Below the pieces are notes generated by a model. That model worked only from the letters and a program-made list of their open reading frames with translations, made no database searches and was not told the DNA's origin. A program made the position numbers and the translations under genes. Below are positions 19,517 to 37,356 of a stretch of 64,000 bases of DNA, piece after piece. The stretch's first letter is position 1. Each line of letters starts with the position of its first letter. The stretch is taken from NCBI GenBank assembly GCA_001899285.1, contig MKWA01000013.1, forward strand, positions 1 through 64,000, read 5' to 3'. The DNA is from Rhizobiales bacterium 64-17. Its GTDB lineage: Bacteria > Pseudomonadota > Alphaproteobacteria > Rhizobiales > Xanthobacteraceae.

Positions 19517-19786
19517 TCAGCGCCGCTTCTCGATGCGGAAAATAAACAGCGTGTCGCGCTTTTCTTGAGCGGCAAGCGCGTGGCCGGTCTGGTTGACGAA
19601 ATGTGGCACGTCGATCGCGGCGAGGGGATCGGTGCATTCGAGCACAAGAACGCCGCCGACCGGAATATCGCGCAGCGCCTTCTTGGCGCGCAGCACCACA
19701 TGCGGGCAGCGCACGCCGCGCAGGTCGAGACGGGTTTCGCTCAGCTCGGGATTGACTGGATCGCCCATAATGCCGCCGTCGATCAT
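19517..19786 (-). CDS. TusA/SirA-family sulfur carrier
   Basis: An 89-residue TusA-like protein. TusA proteins carry persulfide sulfur on the Cys of a CPxP motif; here the motif is LRGVRCPHVVLRAKKAL, so the active Cys and first Pro are kept but the second Pro is Val. The C-terminus is VNQTGHALAAQEKRDTLFIF, typical of the family. It lies about 2 kb from the selenocysteine formate dehydrogenase and could supply sulfur to the molybdenum cofactor or join the DsrE-like protein further right, but this link rests only on position. Confidence 0.82.
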   Translation of the reverse strand: MIDGGIMGDPVNPELSETRLDLRGVRCPHVVLRAKKALRDIPVGGVLVLECTDPLAAIDVPHFVNQTGHALAAQEKRDTLFIFRIEKRR

Positions 19787-19868: not shown

Positions 19869-20969
19869 CTAGGCGGTGATGGATTTTGCCGTCAGCGTGT
19901 ATTTGACGCTGGCGGGATCGAGGCTGTCGAGCAGCAGCCCGGCGTTTTCCGCTTGCGGATACATCAGGAAGCCGAGCTTCGGGTGCTTGCCGCCCGGCAG
20001 CGCGAGGTCATGGGCAAAGTTGTAGGCGAGCCAGTTGCCTTCCCACGAACCGAACAGGGCTTTGCGTGCGGCGATCACCTTCGGATCGTCGAGCGCGAGT
20101 TTGGTCGGCGGTTCCTCCAGCACGACCTTGCGCACGTCGGCGGGATCGACCGGAATCCAGCCGAAACCGGTGAGGTAGACTTCCGCGCGGCAATGTTGCG
20201 CCTTGGTGACGTCGGCGGAGCCGGCGCCGAGGCTCTTGTAGCCGAACTGCGAGGGGGCGACGCGCAGGCCGTAAACGTCGCGCGCCGGCAGGCCGGCGGC
20301 GCGCGCGAGGCCGACATACAGCGCGTTGAGGTCGGCGCATTTGCCGCTCAGGTTTTTGGTTTTCAGCATCGCGACGATATCGCCGGTGCCGCAGCCGCGC
20401 GTCGCAGCGTTACGGAAGGTGTTCTCGACGACCCATTCGTAGATCGCGCGCGCCTTCTCCACGTCGGTCTTCTTGCCGGCGACAATGCCGTTCGAGGTTT
20501 CCTTGACGATGCCGTTGACCGGAATAAGCTCGGTGCCTTCGAGGTAGAGCTTGCGCTGGGCCCCGCTCAATGCCGGGGCTTGTCCCGGTTTGCTCAGATC
20601 CACGGCGCGGTCGCGCGTGGTGATGCGACTGGTCACTTCGACGACCGGTTTGTCTTCACCGTCTTTCCAGACCACATGCAGCATGTCGGCGCCGTATTTG
20701 GGATCGCGCACGCGCGTCGCCGTTGCGGCATTGGTGGTCCAGGTGCTGTCACCGGAGCGGAACCAGTCCGCTTCGTTCACCGACGGCAGCGGAATCCACG
20801 CCTGCGGCTGTCCGATTGCGTTGATGACATCGACGCGCGTGACCAGATCGTAGCTGCGCCACGGACCTGGCTTTGGCGCAAACACCGGTTGCTGCGCAAA
20901 GCCAATGGTCGGCGCCAAGGCTGCGAGCGGCAGCGCGGCGGTGCCTTTCAAAAAATTACGACGATCCAT
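19869..20969 (-). CDS. exported transglutaminase-like cysteine protein with Tat signal
   Basis: A 366-residue protein starting with the Tat-type signal MDRRNFLKGTAALPLAALAP and a likely cleavage after GFAQ. A transglutaminase-like fold follows: catalytic Cys in GKCADLNALYVGLARAAGLPAR and His in QHCRAEVYLTGFGWIPVDPAD. The role may be a periplasmic protease, amidase or cross-linker. A GAGGATTAAG Shine-Dalgarno precedes the ATG and lies on the end of the upstream TlpA-like gene, so the two are co-transcribed. Confidence 0.8.
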   Translation of the reverse strand: MDRRNFLKGTAALPLAALAPTIGFAQQPVFAPKPGPWRSYDLVTRVDVINAIGQPQAWIPLPSVNEADWFRSGDSTWTTNAATATRVRDPKYGADMLHVVWKDGEDKPVVEVTSRITTRDRAVDLSKPGQAPALSGAQRKLYLEGTELIPVNGIVKETSNGIVAGKKTDVEKARAIYEWVVENTFRNAATRGCGTGDIVAMLKTKNLSGKCADLNALYVGLARAAGLPARDVYGLRVAPSQFGYKSLGAGSADVTKAQHCRAEVYLTGFGWIPVDPADVRKVVLEEPPTKLALDDPKVIAARKALFGSWEGNWLAYNFAHDLALPGGKHPKLGFLMYPQAENAGLLLDSLDPASVKYTLTAKSITA

Positions 20970-20970
20970 C

Positions 20971-21711
20971 TTAATCCTCCCCGAGTGATGCGTGTTGTGT
21001 GGTCGATATGCATATGCCTGCAGCGGATGCTGGTTTGGTGCGCTCTGATTTTTTGATGGACTGATAGAGTTTCTCGATGGAGGCGCGAATGTCGGTGCGC
21101 GTCCAATCGATCGCGTCTTCAATGATGAATCGCGGTGTGAGATTCGAATCGAGAACGATCGTTGTCGGCAGGCTGATGACGTTCCACGCCTTTGTCACCG
21201 CGCGATCGCGATCGAGCAGCACGGGAAATTGCACGCCGAGCTTCGCGACAAAAGTACGCACCCTCACGTCGACTTCAGCGACGTCGATCGCAACGACGGT
21301 GATGGGCAGACCGCGCGACTCGTCTGTTAACTTTTGCAGCGAGGTGAATTCCTCGACGCACGGCGCGCACCATGTCGCGAAGAAGTGCAGCAGCACGACG
21401 TGACCGCGGAAGCTCTCCAGCGTGCGTTGTTCGCCACCGACATCGTCGAGCGTGAACGTGGCGCTCGTCGTGCCGGTCCATGGGCGAAGCTGCGCCGTCG
21501 GCGCAAGTTGCGATGATTCAGCCCCGTTTGCGGGATATGCCTGCCAAATCGAGGCAATAAACAGGAACTGGAGCAGGGAAATGATAGAGCGCGTTTTTAT
21601 TGCGTTGCAATAATAACGACCGGCGCTGCATTGCAACAGCCCGGTGACAATCGTGCGAACACTGTCAGAAGCGTCTGGGCCCCGACACGCGGGAGCGGTG
21701 ATTTGCACCAC
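20971..21711 (-). CDS. TlpA-like thioredoxin-fold exported protein
   Basis: Up to 246 residues; an internal hydrophobic stretch (SIISLLQFLFIASIWQAYPANGA) is a signal or anchor, followed by a thioredoxin fold with active site FFATWCAPCVEEF and cis-Pro region VISLPTTIVLD. It probably handles periplasmic disulfides or cytochrome maturation. The true start is unclear because the first 40 residues before the hydrophobic stretch are atypical; a non-ATG start closer to it is likely. Its stop is one base before the start codon of the transglutaminase-like gene. It diverges from the formate dehydrogenase operon. Confidence 0.75.
   Translation of the reverse strand: MVQITAPACRGPDASDSVRTIVTGLLQCSAGRYYCNAIKTRSIISLLQFLFIASIWQAYPANGAESSQLAPTAQLRPWTGTTSATFTLDDVGGEQRTLESFRGHVVLLHFFATWCAPCVEEFTSLQKLTDESRGLPITVVAIDVAEVDVRVRTFVAKLGVQFPVLLDRDRAVTKAWNVISLPTTIVLDSNLTPRFIIEDAIDWTRTDIRASIEKLYQSIKKSERTKPASAAGICISTTQHASLGED
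21604..21637. repeat. 8-bp inverted repeat in the divergent tlpA-like/formate dehydrogenase region
   Basis: GTTGCAAT (21604-21611) and ATTGCAAC (21630-21637) form perfect arms 18 bases apart. It falls in the uncertain 5' part of the TlpA-like frame, so if that gene starts later this could be an operator. Confidence 0.5.
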
Positions 21712-21956: not shown

Positions 21957-24900
21957 ATGAATATGGAGCTCTCGCGGCGCTCATTTATGATCGGCGCCGG
22001 CGCGGGTTTGGCGGGGACGACAATCGGCGCGCTTGGATTTGGTGAAATCGAAGCCGCGCACGCTTTGTCGATCCGGCCGTTCAAACTTGCGCAAACCAAG
22101 GAGGCACGGAGTTCGTGCCCGTACTGTGCCGTGTGTTGCGGCATGATGATCTTCTCGGCGGAAAGCAAAGCCGAGAAGGGCAAGATGGAAGTCACCCATA
22201 TCGAGGGTGACGTCGACCACCCGGTCAATCGCGGAACGTTGTGCCCGAAGGGCGCCGGCGCGATCGACTACATCCGCGCCAAGACGCGCGTGAAGTATCC
22301 GATGTATCGCAAGCCCGGCGCCGACAAGTTCGAGCGCGTGAGCTGGGACTTCGCGATGGATCGCATCGCCAAGTTGATGAAGGACGATCGCGACGCGAAC
22401 TTCGTCGAGAAGAATCGCGACGGCGTCACCGTCAACCGCTGGCCGACGATGGCATTCCTCTCCGGCAGTTCGGTGACGAACGAAACCGGCTGGGTGACCT
22501 ACAAGGTCTCCCGCGGTCTCGGAATGCTGCAGATCGAGAATCAAGCGCGGATATGACACGGACCGACGGTGTCCAGTTTGGGCCCAACATTCGGTCGCGG
22601 TGCAATGACGAACTCCTGGACCGACATCAAAAACGCTGATGTCGTCTGGATCATGGGCGGTAACGCCGCCGAAGCGCATCCGTGCGGCTTCAAGTGGGTC
22701 ACCGAGGCGAAAGCCGAGCGTGGCGCCAAGCTGATGGTGGTCGATCCGCGGTTCAACCGCTCGGCAGCCATGGCGGACCACTATGCGCCGATCCGCGCGG
22801 GCTCCGATATCGCGTTCTTGTCGGGCGTGGTGAACTACCTGCTCAGCAACGACAAGATCCATAAGGAGTATGTGCGCAACTACACGAACGCTGCGTTCGT
22901 TGTGCAGGAGGGCTACGGCTTCGACGAAGGCCTGTTCACCGGCTACAACGAATCGAAGCGGACCTACGACCGCAGCACCTGGGATTACGAGTTCTCGGCC
23001 GACGGCTTTGCCGTGCGGGACATGACGCTCGAACATCCGCGCTGCGTCTACCAGCTCATGAAGAAGCACTTCGAGCGTTACACGCCCGAGCTGGTGGAAC
23101 GTGTCAGCGGCACCCCGAAGGACAAGTTCCTGAAGGTGGCCGAATGGGTCGCCTCGACGGCCAATGGCGAGCGCGCCATGACGATCATGTACGCGCTCGG
23201 CTGGACGCAGCACTCCCACGGTGCGCAGAACATCCGGACGGCGGCGATGATCCAGCTGCTGTGCGGCAACATCGGTATCCCCGGCGGCGGCGTGAACGCA
23301 TTGCGCGGTCACTCCAACGTGCAGGGCATCACCGATGTCGGCACGCTCACGGCGGCGATCCCGGGTTATCTGGCATTGCCGGCGGAATCCGAGCCGACGC
23401 TCGAGTCGCATCTGGGCAAGCGGACGTTCAAGCCGCTGCTGCCGAACCAGACCAGCTACTGGCAGAACTACAGGAAGTTCTATGTCAGCTTCCTGAAGTC
23501 CTATTTCGGCGCCAAGGCGACTCCCGAAAACGAATTCGGCTATCAATGGATGCCGAAGCTCGACACGCCCTATGATGCGTTGCGCATGTTCGACGTGATG
23601 CATCAGGGCAAGACGACTGGCCTGTTGTGCCAGGGCTTCAATCCGCTGATGTCGATTGCCTACTCCGGCAAGACCGTCGCGGCGTTGTCGAAGCTCAAGT
23701 TCCTCGTCAGCATGGATCCGATCGAAACGGACACGGCGCGGTTCTGGGAAAATCACGGCGAGTACAACAACGTTGATACCGCCAAGATCCAGACCGAAGT
23801 GTTCATGCTTCCGGTCACGACCTTCGCCGAAGAGGACGGCAGCTTCACCAACTCCAGCCGTTGCATCCAGTGGAAATGGCAGGCAGCCGACGCGTATTTC
23901 GAGGCCCGTAAGGACATCGAAATCCTGTCGGATCTGTTTACCCGCATCCGCAAGCTCTACGAGAAGGACGGCGGCAAGGGTAAGGACCCGCTGCTGGCGG
24001 TCGACTGGAGCTACAAGGATCCGATGCACCCGAGCGCCGACGAGCTGCTCAAGGAGCTCAACGGCAAGGCGCTGGTGGATCTGAAGGATGCCGACGGCAA
24101 GGTGGTTCGCGCTGCCGGTCAGCAACTCGCCAGTTTCGGCGAAATGCGCGACGACGGCTCGACCGACGGCTCGATGTGGATCTACACCGGCGTCTACGGA
24201 CCGACGGGCAATCTCGCCCAGCGCCGTGAAAACACCGACCCCTCGGGTCTCGGTGTGTTCCCGACCTGGGGCTTCGCCTGGCCGGCCAACCGGCGCATCC
24301 AGTACAACCGTGCGTCCGCGGACCCGCAAGGCAAGCCGTGGAGCGACAAGAAGAAGTACATGTACTGGGATGGCCAGCGCTGGACCGGCCCGGACGTGCC
24401 CGACTACGTGCCGACCATTCCGCCGGAGCGGGCGACTGGCCCGTTCATCATGAACCAGGAAGGCGTGTCGCGCCTTTGGGTTCGCGGCTTGATGGCTGAC
24501 GGTCCGTTCCCGGCGCACTACGAGTCGTTCGAGTCGCCGCTTGCGGCCAACCCGATCTTCCCGAAGATCCGGGGCAATCCGGTGGCGCGGGTGTTCAACA
24601 ACGACATGGAAATCTTTGGCAGCGCCAAGGACTTCCCGATCGTTGCGACCACCTATCGTCTGGTGGAGCACTTCCACTACTGGACCAAGAGCGTCCACGC
24701 GAACGCGGTCATCCAGCCCGAGTTCTTCGTGGAAATTTCCGAGGAACTGGCCAAGGAAAAGGGGATCAAACCCGGACAGCTCGTCCGTGTCTGGTCGAAC
24801 CGCGGTCAGGTCAAGGGCAAGGCGGTCGTCACCAAGCGGATGATCCCGCTCAAGGTCGACGGAAAGATCGTCCACCAGGTCGGTCTGCCGCTCAACTTCG

Positions 24901-25034
24901 GCTTCATCGGCGAAACCAAGAAAGCCTCGCCGATCAATTCGTTGACGCCGCCGGTCGGTGACGCCAACTCGCAGACGCCGGAGTTCAAGTCGTTCCTCGT
25001 CAATATCGAACCCGTTCCGGGTCCGGTGGCTTAA
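21957..25034 (+). CDS. fdnG: formate dehydrogenase-N alpha subunit, selenoprotein (Sec200)
   Basis: A 1025-residue molybdenum (bis-MGD) catalytic subunit that oxidises formate in the periplasm. The Tat signal is LSRRSFMIGAGAGLAG; a [4Fe-4S] site follows as CPYCAVCCGM. The frame appears broken by TGA at 22554-22556, but both halves continue one protein: the sequence around it reads ENQARI-U-HGPTV in all but small changes, the selenocysteine site of E. coli FdnG (Sec196, 1015 residues). A SECIS-like hairpin follows the TGA, and selA, selB, selC and selD are all nearby, so the TGA is selenocysteine and not a stop or pseudogene. Automatic callers will give two ORFs (21957-22556 and 22569-25034). 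A CAGGAA Shine-Dalgarno precedes the ATG. Confidence 0.95.
22554..22600 (+). promoter_or_regulatory. selenocysteine UGA with bacterial SECIS hairpin
   Basis: The UGA (22554-22556) is followed by a lower stem GACCGA (22561-22566) with TCGGTC (22591-22596) and an apical hairpin GTCC-AGUUU-GGGC (22571-22583). The loop carries AGU, with A and G at positions 22 and 23 counted from the U of UGA, close to the spacing of the loop AGGUCU in the E. coli fdn/fdh SECIS. This is the site SelB would bind. Confidence 0.82.
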
Positions 25035-25049: not shown

Positions 25050-25988
25050 ATGTTTCAGCCAATTGCAAACCCCACCACCAAGCCGGTCGCGCCGAAGTTT
25101 GGCGATAAGGATCTGATCCGCCGGTCCGCTTCCAACATCACGCCTGCCGCGCAGCGGCAGCCGGAGGTGGCGAAGCTGATCGACGTGTCGAAGTGCATCG
25201 GTTGCAAGGCATGCCAGGTGGCGTGCCTTGAATGGAATAACCTCGTCGAGGAAGTCGGTATCAACGTCGGTGTCTATGACAATCCGCACGATCTGACGCC
25301 GAACACCTGGACGCTGATGCGTTATTCCGAATACCAGAATCCGGAGTCTGGCAATCTCGAGTGGCTGATCCGCAAGGACGGCTGCATGCATTGCGAGGAT
25401 CCGGGCTGTCTGAAAGCCTGCCCCGCACCGGGCGCGATCGTGCAGTACTCGAACGGAATCGTCGATTTCGTTCACGATAACTGCATCGGTTGCGGCTATT
25501 GCGTGAAGGGCTGCCCGTTCAACATCCCGCGCATCTCGAAGGTCGATAACAAGGCCTACAAGTGCTCGCTCTGCGTCGACCGCGTCGCGGTTGGCCAGGG
25601 TCCGGCGTGCCAGAAAGCCTGCCCGACGCAGGCGATCGTGTTCGGCACCAAGGACGAGATGAAGAAGTGGGCCGACTTCCGGATCAAGGATCTCAAGTCG
25701 CGCGGGTTCAAGAACGCGGGACTTTATGATCCGCCGGGCGTCAGCGGCACGCACGTCATGTACGTGTTGCAGCACGCGGACAAGCCGCAGATCTACGCCA
25801 ACCTTGCCAACAATCCGTCGATCAGTCCGGTCGTCGAGATCTGGAAGGGTGTGACGAAGTATGCGGGTCTGGCCGCCATGGGCGCTTTCGTCGCCATCGG
25901 CTTCCTCCATCACATCATCGCGGGACCGAACCGTGTCTCCGCGGAGGATGAGAAGAACGCCGAGAAACTGACGGAGGGCAAGGCATGA
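25050..25988 (+). CDS. fdnH: formate dehydrogenase-N iron-sulfur beta subunit
   Basis: A 312-residue electron-transfer subunit with four [4Fe-4S] clusters; visible Cys groups are [37 protein letters not shown] and KCSLCVDR with ACQKAC. A single C-terminal membrane helix ([22 protein letters not shown]) anchors it. It carries electrons from the alpha subunit to the cytochrome b gamma subunit. It starts 15 bases after fdnG with a strong GGGGAGGG Shine-Dalgarno and overlaps the next gene by four bases. Confidence 0.95.
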
Positions 25989-26659
25989 CAACCGCTTACG
26001 ATGTCGAGCGGGGCGATCAGGTTCATCCCGGAAATCCAGTCACCGTCGACCGGTACACTACCGGCGCGCGGATCAATCACTGGATTACCGCGACCTGTCT
26101 GATCCTGTTGGCCCTGTCCGGCCTCGCGCTGTTCCACCCGAGCCTGTTCTTCCTGACCGGGCTGTTCGGCGACGGACAGAACACGCGCGCGATCCATCCG
26201 TGGATCGGCGTGGTCCTGTTCTTCAGCTTCGCCGGACTGTTCATCCGCTTCTGGAAGGCCAATCTCTGGCGGCGCGAGGACGGCACCTGGATGGCACGTC
26301 TGCACGACGTGCTGACCGGGAACGAGGAGAAGTTGCCCGAGGTCGGCAAGTACAATGCCGGTCAGAAGGTGGTGTTCTGGTCGATGTCGATCCTGATCAT
26401 CACCCTGATCGTCAGCGGCTTCGTGATCTGGGACCAGTACTTCTCCGAGTACTCCACCATTCCGCAGAAGCGCGTGGCCGTTCTGGTTCACGCGCTGGCG
26501 GCGGTCGCGATCATCTGCGTCTGGATCGTCCACGTTTACGCGGCGATCTGGGTGCGGGGCACCATCGGTGCCATGACCCGCGGCAAGGTCACCGGCGGCT
26601 GGGCCTGGCGCCACCATCGCAAGTGGTTGCGCGAGCTGGTCGGCGGCAAAAAGGCTTGA
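25985..26659 (+). CDS. fdnI: formate dehydrogenase-N cytochrome b556 gamma subunit
   Basis: A 224-residue membrane subunit with four helices. Heme-ligand His candidates sit in [18 protein letters not shown] and VLVHALAAV with IVHVYAA; the [10 protein letters not shown] loop is family-typical. It passes electrons to the quinone pool. The stop codon lies in the first of three 14-base tandem copies, followed by a perfect 12-bp hairpin. Confidence 0.93.
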
Positions 26660-26775: not shown

Positions 26776-27693
26776 ATGTCACCGGTCGATACGACGGAAC
26801 CCGATCCCTCCGCTATTGCCAATATCCCGAAGCCGCCCTTTGTCAGGCTTCCCCATCCTTCCCGGATGTTTGCGACCCGGGCCGAGCGGTTCCGAACCCT
26901 CGCCGAAGGTCATGATCTGAAACCCTATCTGCTGTTCCTGGCGGACCTGTGCGCCGCGCAGGCGGCGATCCAGGACGGCCTGCCGAAACTGGCCCCGCTC
27001 GACGCAGCGGTGCTGGCGCGCGCCAGGGAACACAAGATGCCGCCGCTCGATCGCGGCCATTTCACCGCCGATCCGGCATTCGAGGCGCCCTTTTCGCGGC
27101 TGATCGCGGCGGCCGAGCAGATGACGATGCCGGCGGTGGCGCAGGCCGCGCTGCTGCGGGTCAAGGCTGCCGATGCGGCCGCGCGCGAGGGCATGGTGCA
27201 GAACGTGCTGGCCGAGGCGATTCCGGTCGAGGCGCTGGCCGAGCATGTGTTCGTTGCCGCAGCCCTGCAGGTGCACTTCGCCCGGTTGGCAGAGCGGCTG
27301 CCCGGCAGGGAGATGGAATCGGTCGGCGACGGTGTTTGCCCCTCGTGTGGTGGTGCGCCGGCCTCGACGTTGTTGGTTTCGTGGCCGCCGCCGGCGGGCG
27401 CGCGCTACTGCTCCTGCTCGCTGTGCGGGACGATGTGGAACCATCTGCGGTCGAAATGCACGCTGTGCGGCTCGACCAGCAAGATCGCGTTCCAGGAGAT
27501 CGAAGGCACCGGCGGCACCATCAAGGCGGAAACCTGCGAGGACTGCCACGGTTATATGAAGATGATGAACCAGCAGAACGACCGCTTCCTCGATCCGATC
27601 GCGGACGACGTGGCGACGCTCGGCCTCGATCTGCTGGTGCGCGAGCTTGGTTTCCGTCGCGGTGGCATCAATCCGTTCCTGATCGGCTACTGA
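26776..27693 (+). CDS. fdhE: formate dehydrogenase accessory protein FdhE
   Basis: A 305-residue cytoplasmic maturation factor for formate dehydrogenase. It carries the rubredoxin-like Cys pairs of the family: CPSCGG, CSLCGTMW, CTLCGS and CEDCHGY (four CxxC). The GGAAG Shine-Dalgarno precedes the ATG. FdhE binds the Tat-targeted catalytic subunit and helps it fold. The sulfurtransferase FdhD, which is also required, is not in this window. Confidence 0.92.
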   Translation: MSPVDTTEPDPSAIANIPKPPFVRLPHPSRMFATRAERFRTLAEGHDLKPYLLFLADLCAAQAAIQDGLPKLAPLDAAVLARAREHKMPPLDRGHFTADPAFEAPFSRLIAAAEQMTMPAVAQAALLRVKAADAAAREGMVQNVLAEAIPVEALAEHVFVAAALQVHFARLAERLPGREMESVGDGVCPSCGGAPASTLLVSWPPPAGARYCSCSLCGTMWNHLRSKCTLCGSTSKIAFQEIEGTGGTIKAETCEDCHGYMKMMNQQNDRFLDPIADDVATLGLDLLVRELGFRRGGINPFLIGY

Positions 27694-27703: not shown

Positions 27704-29113
27704 GTGCGCGATCCGGACACCAGCCTCAGGCGAATTCCGTCCGTTGACGAGGTGCTGAAGACGGCGCCGGCGCTTGCCGCGATCGAGCGGTTCGGCAGGC
27801 CGGCGGTCGTCGCCGCGATCCGCGCGCGGATCGATCACATCCGCCAGATGCTTGCGTCCGGCGGTGCGTTGAGCAGGACCGTCGACGAGATCGCGGTTGC
27901 CGCTGCCGAGCGATTGGCCGCCGACGCCGCGCTCAAGGCGCGGCCGGTGTTCAATCTCACCGGCACGGTGCTGCACACCAATCTCGGCCGCGCCTTGCTG
28001 GCGGATGCCGCCGTCGCCGCCGCGACCGATGCGATGCGCGAGGCGCTCGCTTTGGAGTTCAATCTCGATGACGGCAAGCGCGGCGAGCGCGACAGTCTCG
28101 TCCGTGGGTTGCTGTGCGAACTGACCGGCGCGGAAGACGCCACGGTGGTCAACAACAACGCCGCCGCCGTGCTGCTGGTGCTCAACACGCTTGCCGGCGG
28201 CCGCGACGCCATCGTCTCGCGCGGCGAACTGATCGAGATTGGTGGCGCGTTCCGCATGCCGGAGATCATGGCGCGTGCCGGGGCCAATCTGGTCGAGGTC
28301 GGCACCACCAACCGCACCCATGAGAAGGATTATCGCGGCGCGTTCGGGCCGCAGACCGGGCTGATCCTCAAGGTGCATACCTCGAACTACCGGATCGAGG
28401 GCTTCACCAAGGAAGTGGGGGCGAAGGCCCTGGCGGAGATCGCGCGCGAAGCCAATGTGCCGCTGGTCAACGACCTCGGCTCCGGTACGCTGATCGATCT
28501 GACGCGCTTCGGCCTCGCGCATGAGCCGACCGTCGCGGAAGCGGTGGCCGAAGGCGCGGACCTCGTTACATTCTCCGGCGACAAGCTGCTCGGCGGTCCG
28601 CAGGCCGGCTTCATCGTCGGCCGCCGCGACCTGATTGCCGCGCTCAACAAGAATCCGATGAAGCGCGCGCTGCGCATGGACAAGATCCGGCTCGCGGCGC
28701 TGGAAGCGACCTTGCGGCTCTACCGTGATCCCGACCGGCTGGCGCAGCGCCTGCCGACGGTGCGGCTGATCGCGCGCGGCAAGGATGACATCGCCGCGCT
28801 GGCGGCGCGTCTCGTGTCTGCGGTGAGCCAAGCGGTCGGCAAGGACTACACGGTGTCCGTGACCGATTGCGCCAGCCAGATCGGCTCCGGCGCGCTGCCG
28901 CAGCAGACGATCCCGAGCGCGGGGCTTGCTATTCGCTCGACACAGGGTGGTGGCGGCGCGTTGACGGCGCTCGCGACGGCGTTGCGGGCGTTGCCGATGC
29001 CGGTGATCGGCCGCATCGAGGATCAGGCGCTGGTGCTCGATCTGCGTTGTCTCGAGGATGAGGCACGGTTCGCCGGCAATCTCGCCACGCTCACGCTTGC
29101 GGAGCCGCGCTGA
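27704..29113 (+). CDS. selA: L-seryl-tRNA(Sec) selenium transferase
   Basis: A 469-residue PLP enzyme that converts Ser-tRNA(Sec) to Sec-tRNA(Sec) with selenophosphate. Family segments include INLTGTVLHTNLGRALL-like residues (NLTGTVLHTNLGRALL), VNNNAAAVLLVLNTLAGG, NDLGSGTLIDL and the PLP-lysine site FSGDKLLGGPQAG. The start is GTG ten bases after fdhE. Its TGA overlaps the ATG of the Sel1-repeat gene, so the set is translated as a coupled operon. Confidence 0.95.
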   Translation: MRDPDTSLRRIPSVDEVLKTAPALAAIERFGRPAVVAAIRARIDHIRQMLASGGALSRTVDEIAVAAAERLAADAALKARPVFNLTGTVLHTNLGRALLADAAVAAATDAMREALALEFNLDDGKRGERDSLVRGLLCELTGAEDATVVNNNAAAVLLVLNTLAGGRDAIVSRGELIEIGGAFRMPEIMARAGANLVEVGTTNRTHEKDYRGAFGPQTGLILKVHTSNYRIEGFTKEVGAKALAEIAREANVPLVNDLGSGTLIDLTRFGLAHEPTVAEAVAEGADLVTFSGDKLLGGPQAGFIVGRRDLIAALNKNPMKRALRMDKIRLAALEATLRLYRDPDRLAQRLPTVRLIARGKDDIAALAARLVSAVSQAVGKDYTVSVTDCASQIGSGALPQQTIPSAGLAIRSTQGGGGALTALATALRALPMPVIGRIEDQALVLDLRCLEDEARFAGNLATLTLAEPR

Positions 29114-29907
29114 TGGGCTGGCTCGACCGCATCGTCTCGCTCAAGCACGCGCCGGAGAAATCGGCCGGCGAGATGATGGCGGTCGCCTATGAGGCGGCGC
29201 AGAACAACGACTACGAGACCGCGCTCTCGATCTGGGGGCCGCTGGCGCATCAGGGTGTCGCGCGGGCGCAGAACAATGTGGGCGCGTGCTTCTCGGAAGG
29301 CATCGGCGTCGAGCGCGATCCGGTGCTCGCGCTGAAATGGCTGACCTTGTCCGCCGACGCCGGCGATCCGATCGGGCAGCGCAATCTCGCCGCTGCCTAC
29401 TTCAAGGGCGAAGGCGTCGAGCCCGATCCGGTGCGCGCGGCGGAATTGTACCGCGCCGCCGCTGAAGCGGGCGATGCGACCGCGCAGGACATGCTGTCGT
29501 GGATGTTGCTCGAAGGCGAGATGATCCCCGGCGACGTCGCCGAGGCGAGGCGCTGGGCGGAAGCCGCCGCGGAGCAGGGCATTGCGCCGGCGATGACACG
29601 GCTCGGCATGATCTACCACAACGCACTCGGCGTGGAGCGCGATGCCGCGCTCGCGGCGCGCTGGTGGGACAAGGCGGCGGCGCGCGGTGATGCCGATGCG
29701 CAGGCGATGCTTGGTGCTGCCTATCATCTCGGTGCTGGCGTGCCGCGCGATGCGGTGGCGGCGCTGATGTGGCTTCTGCGCGCGCGTGACGGCGGCAGCG
29801 CGCTGGCGCAACCTTTCGTCGAGCCGGTGAAAGCCGGGCTTGTAGACGCTGAAATCGCTCGTGCGCAGCAACTGGCGAGTGCGCCGCTGGCGGAGCCGGT
29901 GTCATGA
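29113..29907 (+). CDS. Sel1-like repeat protein between selA and selB
   Basis: A 264-residue helical-repeat protein made of about six Sel1-like repeats (e.g. [22 protein letters not shown], split here: [16 protein letters not shown] then [22 protein letters not shown] then AGVPRD). No signal peptide, so probably cytoplasmic. Its start overlaps the selA stop and its stop overlaps the selB start, which implies a role linked to selenocysteine insertion, perhaps as an adaptor, but no function is known. The name Sel1 refers to a eukaryotic protein and is not itself evidence for selenium. Confidence 0.8.
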
Positions 29908-32003
29908 TCGTCGGCACCGCGGGGCATATCGACCACGGCAAGACCTCGCTAGTGCGGGCGCTGACCGGCGTCGACACCGACCGTCTCAAGGATGAGAAGG
30001 CGCGCGGCATCTCCATCGACCTCGGCTTTGCCTATCTGCCGTCGCCCGATGGCGGCGTGCTTGGCTTTGTCGATGTGCCGGGCCACGAGCGCTTCGTGCA
30101 CAACATGCTCGCCGGCGCGAGTGGCATTGATTTCGTGCTGCTGGTGATCGCCGCCGACGACGGCGTGATGCCGCAGACCATGGAACATCTGGCGATCGTC
30201 GATCTGCTCGGGATCAGCCATGGCCTCGTCGCCATCACCAAGGCCGATCTGGTTGATGCCGATCGTCTGGCGGCGGTGAAGACCGAGATCGCCAATGTGC
30301 TGGCGCCCACGGCGTTGCGCGACGCCGACATGATCGCGGTGTCGAGCCAGACCGGGCAGGGCATCGATGAACTGCGCCAGCGGTTGTTTGCCGAATCCCA
30401 AAGGCTTGGCAGCCGCTCCGACAAGGGGCGTTTCCGGCTCGCGGTGGATCGCTCGTTCACCCTGCAAGGTGCTGGCACGGTGGTCACCGGCACGGTGTTG
30501 TCGGGGCAGGTTCACGCCGAGGATCAGGTGCGGATCAGCCCCTCGGGCCTGACGGCGCGGGTGCGATCCATCCATGCGCAGAACCGGCCGGCGCAGATGG
30601 GGCGCGCCGGCGACCGCTGCGCGCTCAATCTCGCTGGCGACGGCATCACCAAGGACGCCATCGCGCGCGGTCAGGTCGTGCTCGATCCCGACTTGCACGC
30701 GCCGGCGGACCGCATCGATGTGACGCTGCGCGTGCTCGCATCGGAGCCGCGGCCGATCACCCAGTGGATGCCGGTGCGTCTGCACCATGCCGCCGCCGAA
30801 GTCGGCGCGCGGGTGGTGCTGCTCGGCGATGGTCCCATCGCGCCGGGCACCGAGGCATTCGTGCAACTCGTGCTGGAGCAGCCGATCGCGGCTGCGGCTG
30901 GCGACCGTTTCGTTCTGCGCGACACCAGCGCGCAACGCACCATCGGCGGCGGCATGCTGCTCGATCTGCGCGCGCCGGCGCGCAAGCGCCGCACGCCGGA
31001 GCGGCTGGCGCAGCTCGAGGCCTATGCCATCGCCGATCCGGTCAAGGCGTTATCGGTATTGCTAGACCGGCCGCCGGGTTATGTCGATTTCACCGCCTTC
31101 TGCCGCGATCGCGCGCTGTCGGCGACGGAATGCGATGCCATCGCCACGGACACCAGCCTGTTTCGGCTGACGACACCGAAGACGGAGCTGGCATTGTCGC
31201 CGGCCAACTGGTTGCGGCTCAAGCGCAGCATGCTGGCGACGCTGACGCAATTCCATGCTGACAATCCAAATCTGCCCGGCATGGGGCTGGAGCGGCTGCG
31301 GCTGCAACTTGAGCCGCGCTTGCCGGCGCCGGCTTTCGGCGCACTGCTGCAAGGTTTGGCTCGCACCAAAGATGTGTCGCTCGACGGCGCCTGGATTCGT
31401 CTACCGAGTCACGAGGTCCGGCTGACGCCGCAGGACGAGCGGCTGTGGGCCAAGATCGCGCCGCTGATCGAGGGGACCGAGCGGTTCCGGCCGCCGCGCG
31501 TGCGCGACATCGCCGATTTGATCCACGAGCCGGAAGGCGAGATCCGGCGGCTGTTGAAGTTGCTCGGCCGCATGGGCCGTGTCGATGAAGTGGCGCATGA
31601 TCACTTCTTCCTGCGCAACACCGTCGCCGAGATGGTGGAGATCGCGACGAAGCTGGCCGGCGAAGCGCCGGATGGACAATTCAACGCCGCGCTGTTCCGG
31701 GATCAGATGAATAACGGCCGCAAGGTCGCGATCCAGATCCTCGAGTTTTTCGACCGGCACGGCGTCACGATGCGGCGCGGCGATCTGCGGCGCATCAACA
31801 AACACCGACTTGACCTGTTCCGCCGTTCGTCGGATTCAGGAGGGGCGCAGACTGCGTCCGATACCGTTTCAGGAAGAGCATCGTCCCCGGTGGGGCGTCC
31901 GGACTTCAAATCCGGGAAGGGCCGCGAGCCGGTCCTTGGTGGGTTCGACTCCCATTCTCTTCCGCCAAATTCCGGACACCGTCACCGCAGGAGCGCGCGA
32001 TGA
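29904..32003 (+). CDS. selB: selenocysteine-specific elongation factor SelB, frame continuing through selC
   Basis: A GTPase that carries Sec-tRNA(Sec) to UGA codons next to a SECIS. GTPase motifs: [26 protein letters not shown] and VSSQTGQG. Domains II-III follow, then four winged helices (about 360-640) that bind the SECIS; the last ends in [18 protein letters not shown]. The frame gives 699 residues, longer than usual, because no stop occurs before 32001-32003; codons 657-688 are the tRNA-Sec gene itself. So either SelB carries a 40-odd-residue tail made from tRNA sequence, or the mRNA is cut at selC by tRNA processing and the protein end is lost or rescued. It overlaps the next gene by ATGA. 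Confidence 0.93.
31872..31967 (+). tRNA. selC: tRNA-Sec (anticodon TCA)
   Basis: A 96-base tRNA with encoded CCA, very similar to E. coli selC. The acceptor stem GGAAGAG (31872-31878) pairs with CTCTTCC (31957-31963); the eighth pair expected of tRNA-Sec would be a C-U mismatch. The anticodon stem CCGGA/TCCGG encloses CTTCAAA with anticodon TCA at 31906-31908. A long extra arm (GAAGGGCCGCGAGCCGGTCC region) and T-loop TTCGACT follow. It lies wholly inside the open frame of selB. Confidence 0.95.
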
Positions 32004-32491
32004 GCCTCACCACATATCTTGATGGGTTGGAGCAGGCCGCGCACGCCGCCAGCACGGCCGAGGAAGTCTATCGCCGCGAGATCGCGCAGCGGGTCCGCGC
32101 GCTGGAGCAAGAGCGCGCTTTTGCCTTCCGCCGGCTGAACCTGATGCGGACCGTTACGGCGGCGGTGACGGGTCATGAGGAAGAAGCCGAGGCGCTGCAG
32201 GCCGGTAACGTCGCTTTCATGCGTGAACTCGAGTGGACCGGCGCGACCGAAGCGCAGCGACAGGCGCTGGAGCAGTTCCAGCCGGTGGTCCTGGCCGCGT
32301 GGACTCTCAGCCGCGTCACCGAGGGCGAGGGTGACAAAGCTGCCGACACGGCCGCCGATAAGGCGGCCAAGATGGCGGCGTTGCAGCGCGCCTTGACCGT
32401 GTTCGAGCAATGGTTTGCTGCCTCGCGCAATGGGCCGTTCCTCAGCGTGATGGAACGCGAAGTGGTGGAATTGCCGCTTGTCGAAATCTAA
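32000..32491 (+). CDS. unrecognised helical protein downstream of selC
   Basis: A 163-residue, probably all-helical and soluble protein; residues 20-60 are charged and heptad-like (coiled-coil candidate), and residues about 115-125 hold an Ala/Asp/Lys run. No Cys and no known motif. Its ATG overlaps the selB stop and its end overlaps the next frame, so it belongs to the selenium operon. Function unknown. Confidence 0.7.
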   Translation: MSLTTYLDGLEQAAHAASTAEEVYRREIAQRVRALEQERAFAFRRLNLMRTVTAAVTGHEEEAEALQAGNVAFMRELEWTGATEAQRQALEQFQPVVLAAWTLSRVTEGEGDKAADTAADKAAKMAALQRALTVFEQWFAASRNGPFLSVMEREVVELPLVEI

Positions 32492-32927
32492 GTCGAAATC
32501 GAAGCCGAGGTTCAAACCGGGAGCGAAGCCGAAATCGGTAGAGCCGGCACGGGACGCTTTTTTATTCGATGACTGGATCGTCGATGAATATCGGCGGACC
32601 GAAGGGTTCACAGCTCTCGTGGTGCTGCTGTCGATCGGTAATTTTGAAGTGTTGCCGCTGCGCTCCACCTTCATGCATGTGATCGGCGACGAACTGACCT
32701 GGCTCAATCTCACCGAGCTGCTGCGCAGCGCCGGTGTCGCGTGGGATGGCGTGTTGATCATGCCCGTCAGCGATACGGAAGGCGGTCCGGTGGAGGATAT
32801 TGTTGCGCGAACCGAGTTACGGGCGCTGGAAAAACGCGTGATCGAAGATCGTACGGTCATCAACGAAGGCCATTTTTTCGACAAGTGGGGCCGACGGATG
32901 AAGATCGAGGAAGCGCAACCGCAATGA
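32478..32927 (+). CDS. unrecognised small protein with basic N-terminus
   Basis: A 149-residue protein starting at a TTG within the end of the previous gene (14-base overlap). The first 20 residues are Lys/Ser/Pro-rich (SKSKSKSKPRFKPGAKPKS), followed by a folded alpha/beta domain with DAFLFDDWIVDEYRR and WDGVLIMPVSDTEGGPVED. No catalytic motif or Cys is evident. It overlaps the lipoate-ligase-like gene by ATGA. The start is the only in-frame option covering the conserved-looking part. Function unknown. Confidence 0.62.
   Translation: MSKSKSKSKPRFKPGAKPKSVEPARDAFLFDDWIVDEYRRTEGFTALVVLLSIGNFEVLPLRSTFMHVIGDELTWLNLTELLRSAGVAWDGVLIMPVSDTEGGPVEDIVARTELRALEKRVIEDRTVINEGHFFDKWGRRMKIEEAQPQ
32480..32503. 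repeat. 12-base tandem duplication spanning a stop codon
   Basis: GTCGAAATCTAA and GTCGAAATCGAA are adjacent and differ at one base; the first contains the TAA of the upstream gene while both encode SKS(K/R)-type residues in the overlapping downstream frame. Confidence 0.85.
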
Positions 32928-33697
32928 CCCGCACCTTGCGGGTGATCGATACGGGGCTTAAGCCCGCCCATTGGAACATCGCCGTGACGGCGGCGCTGAT
33001 CGAGCAGCATGTTGACGGACGGATTGCCGACACGCTGCGTTTCCATCGTTATCGCCCGGCGGTCCTGATCGGACGGAACCAGCGGTTCGCCGAGGCTTGC
33101 GATGTGCGGGCATGCCGGCGGCATGGGGTCGATGTGGCACGGCGCATCACCGGCGGCGGCGCGGTTTACATGACGCCGGGCGTGCTGGCGTTCGATCTTG
33201 TCATCGGCCGGCGCGTGGCCGGCGATCAGGAACACGCCGCGTCCACCATCTGCCAGGCGCTGGCGCGGGGCTTGTCACGCCTCGATGCGACGGGCCGGCT
33301 GGTGGCGCGCTATCGTGCGCCCAACGATATCGTCATCGCCGGCCGCAAGGTGGTGGGTGCCAGCGGCTATTACGACGGTACGACGCTGGCCTATCAGGGC
33401 GCGATCATGATCGACATGGATTTCGCGATGATGGCCGAGGTGCTGGTGTTGCCGGCGCCACTCGATGGGCAGTTGACGTGTCTGCGTGAGCAGGCCGGCC
33501 CGGCGGCGGACCGCAACGCGTTGACGGGTTTCGTGACCGGCGAACTGACGCAGGTTTTCGGCTATGCTGCGGCTCCGGATGATCTGGACGAAGCGACAAT
33601 GCAGATTGCCGAGCGGATGCTCGTGGACGGAATGGGCGACGCCGAAGATCACCCGCCCGGCCGTGCCTCGCATCCGATGCAGGAACAAGCGTCGTGA
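32924..33697 (+). CDS. lipoate-protein ligase-like protein (BPL/LplA/LipB fold)
   Basis: A 257-residue protein of the lipoate ligase fold. Key motifs are RRITGGGAVYMTPGVLAFDL (residues 73-92; the RRxxGGGAVYH-type nucleotide/lipoate loop) and NDIVIAGRKVVGASGYYDG with the expected catalytic Lys142, followed by YQGAIMIDMD. It lacks the long C-terminal LplA domain, as in small ligases (sLpl) of sulfur-oxidation clusters. It should attach lipoate or octanoate to a carrier, and the obvious carrier is the GcvH-like protein two genes downstream. It overlaps both neighbours by four bases. Confidence 0.82.
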   Translation: MTRTLRVIDTGLKPAHWNIAVTAALIEQHVDGRIADTLRFHRYRPAVLIGRNQRFAEACDVRACRRHGVDVARRITGGGAVYMTPGVLAFDLVIGRRVAGDQEHAASTICQALARGLSRLDATGRLVARYRAPNDIVIAGRKVVGASGYYDGTTLAYQGAIMIDMDFAMMAEVLVLPAPLDGQLTCLREQAGPAADRNALTGFVTGELTQVFGYAAAPDDLDEATMQIAERMLVDGMGDAEDHPPGRASHPMQEQAS

Positions 33698-34071
33698 CCA
33701 AGCGTCTGCTGATCGTTCTGGTGAACACCGACCCGCGCAACGGCGAGGAGATGGGCGCGCCGTTCTATCACGCGGCGGTCGCCGCAGCGATGGATTACGA
33801 GGTCGATGTGGTTTGTGCCGCGACGGCCGGCAAGCTGATGATCAAGGGCGTCGCCGAAAAGTTGCACGTCAAGGCAGGTCATCCGCGAACGGTCTATGAC
33901 TGGATCAAGGAAGCGCACGATCACGGTGCGAAATTCTGGGCGTGCCCGGCCAATCTCGATCTGTTCGAGGTGAACGAAAGCGATCTGATCCCCGAATGCG
34001 CCGGTCTGATGGGCGCCGCCACCATGATCCAGAACATCATGGACGGCGAATATCGCGTGCTGACCTATTGA
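33694..34071 (+). CDS. DsrE-like protein
   Basis: A 125-residue DsrE/DsrF/YchN-fold protein. It begins KRLLIVLVNTDPRNGEEMGAPFYHAAVAAAM and has Cys41, Cys84 (in FWACPANLDLF) and Cys102 (in PECAGLMGAA); Cys84 is where DsrE-type sulfurtransferases hold persulfide. DsrE proteins pass sulfane sulfur from TusA to downstream carriers. In this selenium locus it might handle sulfur or selenium. It is tightly coupled to the ligase-like gene. Confidence 0.82.
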   Translation: MTKRLLIVLVNTDPRNGEEMGAPFYHAAVAAAMDYEVDVVCAATAGKLMIKGVAEKLHVKAGHPRTVYDWIKEAHDHGAKFWACPANLDLFEVNESDLIPECAGLMGAATMIQNIMDGEYRVLTY

Positions 34072-34083
34072 GATGTGACAGCG

Positions 34084-34548
34084 ATGACGACGGTCCGCGG
34101 CTGCGATTTCCCCGATGCTCTGTTCTACGACGTGCCGACCCATACCTGGTATCAGCCAGCGGATGAGGGGCTTGTCCGGTTCGGCATCAGTCGCGTCGGT
34201 CTTGCGCTGGCGCGCGAGGTGCTGGTGTTCACGCCGAAGCGTGTCGGTTCCGAATGCGAGAAAGGCCGTTCGGTCGCGACCATGGAAAGCGCGAAGTGGG
34301 TCGGCTCCGTGCGCATCGCCTTCGACGGCACGGTCGTTGCGATCAACGAGGCGCTGATCGCGCGGCCGACGATCATCAACGAGGACTGCTATGGCGCCGG
34401 ATGGATGCTGCTGGTGCGTCCGGCGTCCGCGTCATGGCGCGACGCCTTGATCCCCGGCGCGTCGCTCGCCGATGCTTACGAAGCCTGGATGGAGCGCGAG
34501 GCGTTTCCCGGCTGCGGTCCCGACGGACAGATGGCGGCTTTTTTCTAG
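34084..34548 (+). CDS. GcvH-like lipoyl carrier protein
   Basis: A 154-residue protein with the fold of glycine-cleavage H protein: [30 protein letters not shown], then the lipoylation loop [17 protein letters not shown] with Lys71 in the lipoyl-lysine position, and [27 protein letters not shown], matching the VNE...NEDPYGxGWL pattern. No gcvT or gcvP is near, so it is not an ordinary glycine-cleavage component; it resembles the lipoate-binding proteins (LbpA) of sHdr sulfur oxidation, but no hdr genes are present. A GTG nine bases upstream is an alternative start. Its TAG shares a CTAG with the stop of selD. Confidence 0.8.
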
Positions 34549-35594
34549 CTGACCACGCGCACGCCGGGCGCACCGGTTTCCGCATGCCCGACGATCTGCG
34601 CCGCCGGATATCCGGCATCGACGATCGATTTCAGCACCGCTTGCGCATCCTTCGCCGCGCACGACACCAGCAAGCCGCCGGAGGTCTGCGGATCGGCCAG
34701 AAGGTCGCGTTGCCAGTCCGGCATGCCGGCCGGCAGCGACACGGCGTTGCCGTAGCTCGCCCAGTTGCGCTTCGACGCGCCGGTGATGAAACCCGCCTGC
34801 GCCAGCCGGCTCGCGTGGGAGAACAGCGGCACGTCCGAGGCATTGATCACGGCGGTGAGATTCGAGCCGCGCGCCAGTTCGAGGACGTGGCCGAGCAGGC
34901 CGAAGCCGGTCACGTCGGTGATTGCGTGCACGGCAGGATTGGCCGACAGCTCGCCGCCGATGCGGTTCAGCAGCGTCGTCGAAGCCACCATCTCGGCATA
35001 GCCGGCGCCGTCGAGTTCGCCCTTCTTGATGGCGGCGGAATAGATGCCGACGCCGAGCGCCTTGGTCAGGATTAGCGCGTCGCCTGGTTTCGCGTCGGCG
35101 TTGCGGCGCACCTGTTCGGGCCGGCAGAGGCCGATGGCAACGAGGCCATAGATCGGCTCGGGCGCGTCGATCGAATGTCCGCCCGCGACCGGAATGCCGG
35201 CGGCCGCGCAAACCGATGCGCCGCCCTTGAGAATCTCGCGCACCACATCGGTCGGAATCTTGTCGAGCGGCATGCCGAGGATCGCTAGCGCCATGATCGG
35301 CTTGGCGCCCATGGCGTAGACGTCGGAGATCGCATTGGTCGCGGCGATGCGGCCGAAGTCATAAGGATCGTCCACCACCGGCATGAAGAAATCGGTGGTG
35401 GCGACGATGCAGGTGTTGTCGTCGACCTGCCAGACGGCGGCGTCGTCGCCGGTCTCGGTGCCGACCAGCAACTGTTTGAACGGCGATGCGATTGGCTGAT
35501 CGGCCAGCAGTTCCTGCAGCACGGCGGGCGCGAGCTTGCAGCCGCAACCACCGCCATGGGCGAGGCTGGTCAGCTTGACGATCGGGGCGTTCAT
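34545..35594 (-). CDS. selD: selenide, water dikinase
   Basis: A 349-residue ATP-dependent enzyme that makes selenophosphate from selenide, the selenium donor for SelA. Active-site Cys17 and Lys20 lie in GGGCGCK as in E. coli SelD, so this is a Cys-type and not a selenoprotein form. Other family segments: [31 protein letters not shown] and [12 protein letters not shown]. Start is [10 protein letters not shown] with GGAGAA upstream. It faces the selABC group and ends on the same CTAG as the GcvH-like gene, so the two transcripts converge with overlapping stops. Confidence 0.95.
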
Positions 35595-35777
35595 GGCCGG
35601 TTCTCCATACCCAATTGCATCGATGTCACGCCGCGCCGCGGCAGGCTCGCCAGCAATCCGCGCGCCGCGCGAAGCAGAGAAAACCATTGGGATCAGACTA
35701 TTCCTGAAAGCCCGATGGAGGCAAACGGCGAGAGGGGACGCAGGCGTGCCAGCGCGCGCCTGCGTCAACGTGCTCGG

Positions 35778-37106
35778 TCAGACCGTCAGGAAGTCGTCAT
35801 ACATCCGCTTGGCCCAACGAAAATCCTCCTCCAGCAGATCGGGGGAGCGGATATCGATGTCCATTTGCGTCTGCTTGATCTGGCCGTCCGGCAGGAATTC
35901 ATAGTCGAATTGCACCGAGATCGCCTCACGCGGATCGCCGTTGACCAGCATGTAGCAGAGGTTGTCAGGCAGCAGCGCCTTGACTTCCTTGCCGGCGATC
36001 CGCTGGCCGATATAGGTCGCGACGATCTTGCCGACGAAGTTCGCCACATGACCGCTCTTCGGATAGTGACCGAACAACTTGGACACCGGCCCCATCGAGT
36101 CGCCGACGATGTAGACGTTCTCGTCGGCCCTCGCATGGAACATGGTGTTGTGCATGTCAGACCAGGTGGTCGGCTTGCCGTCCGGCGTCTTGCCGATCAG
36201 ATCGGCCTGCCAGACGAGGTCGCCGGCCTGATGCGGCGGCATCAGGATCGCGTCATCGAACTTGAAGTCGCCGGCGGCGGTCTTGATCACCTGATTGAAC
36301 GGATCGACCTCGCTGATCCGCGCATTCGGGACATGCTGGATGATGTCCGGATATAGCTCATCGAACGCGGCCTTGAAGCCGCCGCCGATCGGCATGATCC
36401 GCGGCTTCGGATCGAGGATGACGATTTTCGCGGGGATTTTGTTCTTCTTGAAATGCCACGCCATGATGCAGGCGCGCTCGTAAGGCGAGGGCGGGCAGCG
36501 ATGCGGCGGCGGCGGCAGGGTCATCACCATGGTGCCGCCCTTGAAGTTGTGCACCTTCTGTTTCAGCGCCATCGCTTCCGCGCTCGGGATATAGGCCGAG
36601 GGGAAGCGCGTGCGCGTATAGTCCGCGGCCTTCTGGTCGTTGCCGAACCAGGCGTCGTAAGCGTTGCGAATGCCATCCGACAGGATCAGATAATCGTAGG
36701 AGATCGCGCCTTTCGATGTGCGCACGAGCTTCTTGTCGCGCTCGATCTGCGTCACTTCGGTCTGCACGATGGTGTAGCCGTATTTTCGCGCCGGTCCGAG
36801 TAGATCGTGCATCAGATAGGCGCTGTCGACGACGTCGATCAGCCATTTGTTGCTGATCGGACACGACCAGAAGAACGGGTTTCGTTCGAGCACGACGACT
36901 TCGGCGTTCGGCGCCTGCTCGCGCAGATGCCGCGCGGCCGACAGGCCGCCCCAGCCGCCGCCCGCGATCACCACGCGCGGCCCTTTACCCTTCGGCATCA
37001 ACTCCGTATTGGCATTGATGAGCGTTGGCGCAGCCAACGTCGGTGCGGCAGCGGCGACGGAGATCGCACCGGCCGACGCACCCAGAAATCCGCGACGATT
37101 GAACAT
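35778..37106 (-). CDS. flavocytochrome c sulfide dehydrogenase-like flavoprotein (FccB/SoxF type)
   Basis: A 442-residue exported FAD protein. A Tat signal (FNRRGFLGASAGAISVAAAAP) precedes the FAD motif VVIAGGGWGGLSAARHLRE. Cys residues occur in FWSCPISNKW, HRCPPSPYERA and NLCYMLVNGD; the latter two match the redox disulfide of FccB-type sulfide dehydrogenases. No cytochrome partner gene (fccA) is adjacent. It lies 183 bases upstream of selD on the same strand, so oxidising sulfide or a similar reduced chalcogen in the periplasm beside selenium genes is an attractive but unproven idea. CAGGAGGG Shine-Dalgarno. Confidence 0.82.
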   Translation of the reverse strand: MFNRRGFLGASAGAISVAAAAPTLAAPTLINANTELMPKGKGPRVVIAGGGWGGLSAARHLREQAPNAEVVVLERNPFFWSCPISNKWLIDVVDSAYLMHDLLGPARKYGYTIVQTEVTQIERDKKLVRTSKGAISYDYLILSDGIRNAYDAWFGNDQKAADYTRTRFPSAYIPSAEAMALKQKVHNFKGGTMVMTLPPPPHRCPPSPYERACIMAWHFKKNKIPAKIVILDPKPRIMPIGGGFKAAFDELYPDIIQHVPNARISEVDPFNQVIKTAAGDFKFDDAILMPPHQAGDLVWQADLIGKTPDGKPTTWSDMHNTMFHARADENVYIVGDSMGPVSKLFGHYPKSGHVANFVGKIVATYIGQRIAGKEVKALLPDNLCYMLVNGDPREAISVQFDYEFLPDGQIKQTQMDIDIRSPDLLEEDFRWAKRMYDDFLTV

Positions 37107-37356
37107 CGCATCCCTCCTGGACTGATTTTCGGATTGGTCGACCGACCGGCTGCGCCTCGCCGATTGAATCAAAGCGGACGCAATGATGGAACTTTAGGAA
37201 GGGTGTTCGCGGATTGTCAATGCGACGCCGGGCAGCGCATGCGGGACGTACGATGACAATCGAGATTGGCTATCGATCGATTTGCACGACCGCAGGATGC
37301 CTGCACTGCTCTGAGCATCAGGTCCCCGACAACGATGGCTGCGTCCGACCTTGACG

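Follow-up and report, generated by a model that had tools for sequence, protein, structure and literature searches.

Within an operon for selenocysteine synthesis in Rhizobiales bacterium 64-17 lie three adjacent genes, encoding a lipoate-ligase-like protein (lpl), a DsrE-type sulfur carrier (dsrE) and an LbpA-like lipoyl carrier (lbpA), and relatives of this trio recur beside selenocysteine-containing formate dehydrogenases (Sec-FDH). The window, i.e. the whole stretch of 64,000 nt that was analyzed (GCA_001899285.1, contig MKWA01000013.1, positions 1-64,000, forward strand), has the gene order fdhABC-fdhE-selA-Sel1-selB(selC)-ORF1-ORF2-lpl-dsrE-lbpA, with selD convergent and tusA divergent beyond fdhA. 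In our judgement there is an even chance that TusA, DsrE and LbpA form a dedicated chalcogen relay delivering selenium to SelD for Sec-FDH. That lipoic acid serves as a selenium carrier, with SelD receiving selenium from a lipoylated LbpA-like protein that TusA and DsrE have loaded, is proposed tentatively, as somewhat short of evenly balanced. L and G numbers below denote individual loci and genomes.

An earlier note on this DNA had placed the trio, translationally coupled or closely spaced, between selC and selD. Open reading frames and Pfam matches confirmed all three genes at this place, and the coordinates of selC and selD agree:

32924..33697, + strand: lpl, short lipoate-ligase-like protein of 257 aa, catalytic domain only, Lys142 (Pfam LplA-B_cat, 108 bits, cut-off 27)
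33694..34071, + strand: dsrE, DsrE-type sulfur carrier of 125 aa, Cys84 in WACPAN (DrsE_2, 40.7 bits, cut-off 25; DsrE, 31.1 bits, cut-off 22.7)
34084..34548, + strand: lbpA-like gene, GcvH-fold lipoyl carrier, Lys71 (GCV_H, 84.6 bits, cut-off 22.2, scanned on 34075-34548)

The spacing is as close as had been described. Overlaps of 4 bases join ORF2 to lpl and lpl to dsrE, as well as selB to ORF1, and dsrE is followed by the carrier gene, whose start is better set at ATG 34084, in line with the aligned relatives; Lys71 is then the lipoyl position. The block is larger than the earlier note had it, since ORF1 and ORF2, which were missed there, also belong to it.

A search of 149 genomes of the family with lpl (threshold 1e-10) gave matches in 12 of them, and in none of the six other listed genomes of the window's genus. 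Eight of the 11 other matching genomes carry the block in the same order (L013-L020; L017 has no Sel1 match, and L015 and L017 have no selD within the stretch), while the matches of the remaining three (L021-L023) are ligases outside the block, accompanied by no other part of it. One pass of a DsrE profile over a collection of 84,980 species yielded 51 loci, titled as alphaproteobacteria or merely as Proteobacteria/Pseudomonadota, across which DsrE is 62-84% identical. Strains carrying the operon include Pseudolabrys sp. Root1462 (L067), Rhodoplanes serenus (L046) and Bradyrhizobium sp. Ec3.3 (L039). In these loci, many of which are interrupted by contig ends, we found the carrier (49), SelB (37), FdhE (35), FdhA, ORF1 and ORF2 (34 each), Sel1 (32), Lpl (29) and SelD (15). 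Because the order is repeated in eight of the 11 family genomes and in many of the 51 loci, the co-occurrence of these genes in the window is not due to chance. With starts chosen by us, and gaps outside -60 to 300 bases excluded beforehand, the 51 loci gave gaps of -19 to +43 bases between Lpl and DsrE (26 pairs) and of -29 to +158 bases between DsrE and the carrier (44 pairs); the gap between ORF2 and Lpl was -4 in 12 of 16 pairs. The residues singled out by the earlier note are invariant: the cysteine of DsrE (Cys84) is kept in 65 of 65 loci, the lipoyl lysine (Lys71) in all 62 carriers found in L024-L088 (three loci had no carrier), so that no homologue was seen to lack it, and the ligase lysine (Lys142) in all 38 relatives found (27 loci had no Lpl match).

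SelB exceeded its cut-off in 47 of the 50 searched genomes with trio-type DsrE (49 locus genomes and G111 for L025; L044 was excluded) versus 54 of the 385 genomes of a class sample (Fisher p 5e-32, with five trio genomes removed from the background and related genomes treated as independent); the neighbourhood survey thus did not find a trio occurring mostly without selenium genes. The genomes without SelB over the cut-off are G547 (L040), G556 (L050) and G551 (L045), the contig of L045 nevertheless carrying a piece of SelB. Where the alignment covered its position, the TGA codon of fdhA was present in 12 of 12 loci of the first alignment set, in L078, L082 and L088, in nine of nine further loci and in L168; these counts leave out other enzymes, at L052 (27% identity, Cys) and L077 (21%).

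FdhE was found in 16 of the 385 class-sample genomes, and 14 of these had SelB over the cut-off. Of the remaining two, G499 carries selA next to the FDH on a contig that is cut, and the FdhA of G404 (L173) has Cys; this last, the one Cys-FDH locus seen, gave no sel-gene or trio match in 18 kb. Among SelB-positive genomes the FDH-type trio was present in four of 14 with FdhE (G000, G204, G326 and G422) versus none of 40 without it (p 0.003). The set of G204 is split, with DsrE and Lpl on one contig (L079) and ORF1, ORF2 and the carrier in the FDH locus (L100). G379, whose carrier and DsrE lie away from the FDH, was left out of this count; in this SelB-positive genome the two genes flank an unknown gene (L083). 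Six of the 40 genomes without FdhE carry instead a DsrE of the type found in sHdr sulfur-oxidation loci (G333, G344, G427, G429, G505 and G507), and ORF1 or ORF2 was found in some SelB- and FdhE-positive genomes lacking the DsrE (L090, L092, L097 and L098). Within this sample, what the trio supplements is the Sec-FDH locus rather than selenocysteine use generally.

The description of the carrier as GcvH-like holds for its fold and its lipoyl lysine, as judged from sequence (GCV_H over the cut-off, and a lysine that aligns with that of a solved GcvH); it does not hold for its kinship, which is with LbpA. In the carrier tree, whose LbpA rows are alphaproteobacterial only, four GcvH sequences are split from all LbpA rows (100/100). 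The window carrier falls below the GcvH equivalog and subfamily cut-offs (53.9 bits versus 115.85, and 86.4 versus 117), and the genome has a separate GcvH of its own elsewhere. On these three grounds, the glycine-cleavage H protein was rejected as the identity of the carrier.

The likeness of Lpl, DsrE and the carrier to parts used in sulfur oxidation, also seen by the earlier note, is supported as kinship to sHdr components. Transfer of thiosulfate involving DsrE3A and TusA has reportedly been described. Of the 15 DsrE matches in the class sample, nine come from sHdr loci (L075, L076, L077, L080, L081 and L084-L087), where DsrE is followed by HdrC-like and HdrB-like genes, LbpA lies 6-7.5 kb from DsrE and, in several cases, Lpl, LipS1 or LipS2 is found on the other side. 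The DsrE motif is WACPAN or a variant in FDH loci and CCSPN in sHdr loci (SCSPN in L077). A DsrE tree, which rests on few columns and contains two very long rows, unites 56 FDH-type rows with L083 and L168 in one clade (99/86) and leaves all sHdr rows outside. In the LbpA tree the sHdr rows form a single clade among FDH-type rows, which need three changes; the carrier of L083 is the basal branch of the clade containing the sHdr carriers. The lack of hdr genes remarked on earlier extends to the relatives: sHdrB (HdrB-like) had no match at 1e-30 in any of 57 trio genomes, many of them incomplete assemblies, and the control G333 gave 82% identity. The trio was accordingly rejected as a remnant of an sHdr locus.

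The TusA-like gene reported on the other side of the formate dehydrogenase was confirmed, and it proved to be a recurrent partner. Of 17 trio genomes checked, 12 have next to fdhA a TusA of the window type, 66-84% identical to the window copy (eight of 10 in one set, L111 being left out as a missed locus, and four of seven among L122 and L124-L129, L123 repeating G558). TusA was seen beside the FDH in none of six trio-less Sec-FDH loci (L090, with a 4 kb flank, and L114, L115 and L117-L119, with at least 9 kb; p 0.005); L116 and L120 were dropped, as FdhA or the flank was missing. TusA proteins of sHdr loci are only 32-40% identical to this FDH-linked kind.

The window Lpl has the catalytic domain and the lysine of sLpl(AB); a feature overlooked by the earlier note is that it lacks the C-terminal accessory domain, with no LplB match at E 0.1; a long relative (L060) reaches 42.6 bits for LplB, under the cut-off of 65. 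LipS1 matched 10 of the 57 trio genomes at 1e-15, always under the family cut-off (in L060, LipS1 scored 197 of 230 bits and LipS2 183 of 270). In nine genomes it is a neighbour of selB or the trio (L053, L060, L062, L066, L069, L073, L176, L177 and L178, the last three belonging to G545, G569 and G578); G578 has its Lpl-DsrE-carrier run on a different contig (L072), and the tenth genome is G379. LipS1 accompanies long Lpl proteins (330 aa or more), being found with eight of 13 long and one of 16 short ones and in none of the 22 loci without Lpl; the lone short one is from L063, which is truncated by its contig. Lpl of the window belongs to the short class.

The remaining features are listed below; the fdh and sel gene names were confirmed by family scans.

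19517..19786, - strand: tusA, FDH-linked kind, LDLRGVRCP... (Pfam TusA, 66.4 bits, cut-off 28.6; NCBIfam TusA, 44.4 bits, below the cut-off of 78)
21957..25034, + strand: fdhA, in-frame TGA (Sec) at 22554-22556 (TIGR01553, 1136 bits for the portion following the TGA)
25050-25988 and 25985-26659, + strand: fdhB and fdhC (TIGR01582 and TIGR01583, both over the cut-off)
26776..27693, + strand: fdhE, formate dehydrogenase accessory protein (TIGR01562, 286 bits, cut-off 188)
27704..29113, + strand: selA (TIGR00474, 592 bits, cut-off 268)
29113..29907, + strand: Sel1-repeat protein gene (family scan)
29904..32003, + strand: selB, whose reading frame extends through selC (TIGR00475, 424 bits, cut-off 242)
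31872..31967, + strand: selC, tRNA-Sec, nested within the selB frame
32000..32491, + strand: ORF1, 163 aa (family scans, no known family over the cut-off)
32478..32927, + strand: ORF2, 149 aa (family scans, no known family)
34545..35768, - strand: selD, selenophosphate synthetase (NCBIfam PRK00943.1, 497.6 bits, cut-off 299)

As in the window, selC lies wholly within the selB frame in 43 of 53 loci having both (some loci are the same genome twice), an arrangement already described by Mukai (PMC8124441). Judged by their position, our ORF1 and ORF2 probably correspond to ORF1 and ORF2 of that paper. Of 19 ORF2 relatives, a single one was matched by Pfam, the family being viral and unrelated (E 0.0026); no solved structure was found. 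The search for a SECIS hairpin in fdhA gave folding no better than that of shuffled sequences (z -0.31 and -1.06).

Several neighbours of these genes were also noted. Upstream of selD and on its strand, at a distance of 10 bases, is a flavocytochrome-c sulfide-dehydrogenase-like gene (35778-37172, - strand); it was dropped as a member of the unit, having no match in 51 related loci. Transglutaminase-like and thioredoxin-like (AhpC/TSA, TlpA-like) genes (19869-21711, - strand) lie between tusA and fdhA and recur beside fdhA in many trio genomes, the transglutaminase-like gene being present also in one trio-less Sec-FDH locus (L118).

In 12 genomes selD is co-directional with, and follows, lbpA, dsrE or tusA: it comes directly after tusA in L103, L108, L126, L127 and L128, and after the carrier or DsrE in L025, L029, L042, L052, L057, L062 and L066. 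In five of the latter seven, the SelD frame has 731-791 codons. The run in L066 is carrier-selD-lipS1-lipS2-lpl-dsrE, and SelD is there fused to a pyridine-nucleotide oxidoreductase in a frame that overlaps the end of the carrier gene (L066:4499-6694). A class-V aminotransferase gene lies between selD and fdhA in L062 (11468-12655); class V is the Pfam family that includes cysteine desulfurases and selenocysteine lyases. A SelD label at L037 was dropped, as direct search did not repeat the match.

In a phylum sample, the DsrE profile matched 11 of 398 genomes, four of them outside the class. One of these, the proteobacterium G796 (L168), has fdhABCE-selA-selB-carrier-DsrE with a Sec FdhA, its carrier and DsrE being 36-38% identical, with the lysine and the cysteine kept; the others are an sHdr locus (L171) and two DsrE genes without other parts (L169 and L170). 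Spread by plasmids was considered and dropped: DsrE found no plasmid record, and plasmid matches to the carrier were all below 60% identity, several of those listed being annotated as GcvH. In G913 (L165, L174 and L175), LbpA-DsrE, TusA, LipS1, LipS2 and Lpl occur with no match to sHdrB, sHdrC or FDH in about 47 kb, which is perhaps a further use of the module.

On the observed genes, conserved residues, linkage and lack of a detected sHdrB we base the following scheme, in which we infer lipoylation of the carrier, the direction of transfer and selenium as the cargo. TusA and DsrE would pass on a sulfane-bound atom, most likely selenium, which Cys84 of DsrE would hold as a perselenide. The recipient would be the LbpA-like protein with its dihydrolipoyl arm on Lys71, and this dithiol would then release selenide to SelD, which would make selenophosphate for SelA. 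Lpl, together with LipS1/LipS2 in some relatives, may build the lipoyl arm, and housekeeping lipoylation enzymes may do so where Lpl or LipS is reduced or absent. A lipoyl-bound relay had been suggested in the earlier note, and it gains partial support from the sHdr kinship, the missing hdr genes, the selenium linkage, the kept lysine and the TusA partner.

Several observations weigh against selenium delivery by this chain. No Lpl match was found in the fetched stretch of 22 of the 51 loci, and G556 (L050) has dsrE-lbpA without a detected SelB. Nine of the 14 genomes with SelB and FdhE have no DsrE of this profile, which indicates that SelD works without it, and a general selenium donor would not predict the absence of the trio from all 40 SelB-positive genomes lacking FdhE. 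In the window and in seven of the 15 loci that gave a match to SelD (L024, L027, L028, L030, L032, L033 and L035), selD is convergent and not co-transcribed, so that the linkage is weaker there. Moreover, the homologues of known chemistry move sulfur, and G558, one of the trio genomes, has an fdhD at a distance of about 11 kb from its trio.

The last two points also count in favour of a rival idea, that the cargo is sulfur and that TusA-DsrE-LbpA feeds FdhD (or FdhE), sulfurating the molybdenum cofactor of this formate dehydrogenase. We regard this as unlikely. In its favour, FDH-type trios of the class sample occur exclusively in genomes with FdhE-type FDH. All 25 trio genomes searched for FdhD, a subset of the 57, have it (24 over the cut-off), so that an acceptor exists as well; this finding also led us to reject the notion that the trio replaces FdhD. 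However, both fdhD copies of the window genome are on other contigs and it is selD that is linked instead, co-directionally in 12 genomes; the trio has no match in the single Cys-FDH locus that carries FdhE, and Sec-FDH genomes without the trio exist.

A role in discrimination or protection, without delivery of an atom, seems improbable to us. In it, the set would remove or reduce sulfane sulfur or oxidised selenium in the vicinity of SelD/SelA, or would sense the chalcogen state. The patchy occurrence among Sec-FDH genomes would suit such an auxiliary role, and a dihydrolipoyl arm is a good reductant; on the other hand, the dedicated lipoyl synthase set of some genomes and the TusA partner resemble a transfer chain, and no regulator domain was seen in the scanned window proteins. 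It is very hard to believe that the genes are passengers out of an sHdr cluster, functionless in the FDH locus. They are close kin of sHdr parts, and Lpl is short or matchless in many loci, but the 62-84% identity of DsrE across the 51 loci, the invariant catalytic residues and the maintained order with small gaps or overlaps speak against it.

Selenium is both toxic and scarce, and how it reaches SelD without being mixed up with sulfur is a long-standing question. For selenium delivery to SelD by the relay, the operons described here point to a definite chain whose residues are conserved, in named strains amenable to gene deletion. They also put LbpA, Lpl and LipS1/LipS2 in a setting other than sulfur oxidation. 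If the proposal is true, there would be a dedicated selenium chaperone chain, and a further use of protein-bound lipoate besides central carbon metabolism and sulfur oxidation. We found no paper on an association of lipoate-binding protein or the trio with selenocysteine in a literature coverage that lay outside most subscription journals.

Three known systems are comparable with the present one. The alphaproteobacterial fdoGHI-selABC clusters of Mukai (PMC8124441) are operons of the same kind, with a nested selC and two ORFs after selB; the main text of that paper makes no mention of lipo, glycine cleavage, DsrE, TusA, ligase or sulfur. The sHdr module of Hyphomicrobium denitrificans (LbpA/sLpl(AB)/LipS1-LipS2/DsrE/TusA; PMC6067878, PMC10332631) employs the same protein families and lipoyl lysine, and shares the ligase, the TusA and DsrE partners and, in nine of our genomes, a LipS1 beside selB or the trio. 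It differs in that sHdrB had no match in our 57 trio genomes, which place the set in Sec-FDH operons, in that the DsrE of FDH loci has mostly WACPAN instead of CCSPN, and in the kind of TusA and the often short or matchless Lpl.

The protein called FdhT is YedE. A precedent for a selenium role is YedF/FdhU, a SirA-DsrE fusion considered here together with YedE/FdhT, in which TusA/SirA and DsrE domains are likewise tied to SelD and a selenium-dependent formate dehydrogenase (PMC5322559). In Methanococcus maripaludis, TusA/TusD transcripts rise 4.5-4.6 log2-fold under selenium depletion; tRNA thiolation is what the authors discuss, and the transcript of a DsrE-like gene in a different operon decreases (PMC11097638). 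Compared by description, the YedF profile not having been searched, the window DsrE has WACPAN and not the CGXC motif that YedF is described as having. In contrast to YedF/FdhU, the domains are here separate proteins, joined by a lipoyl carrier and its ligase.

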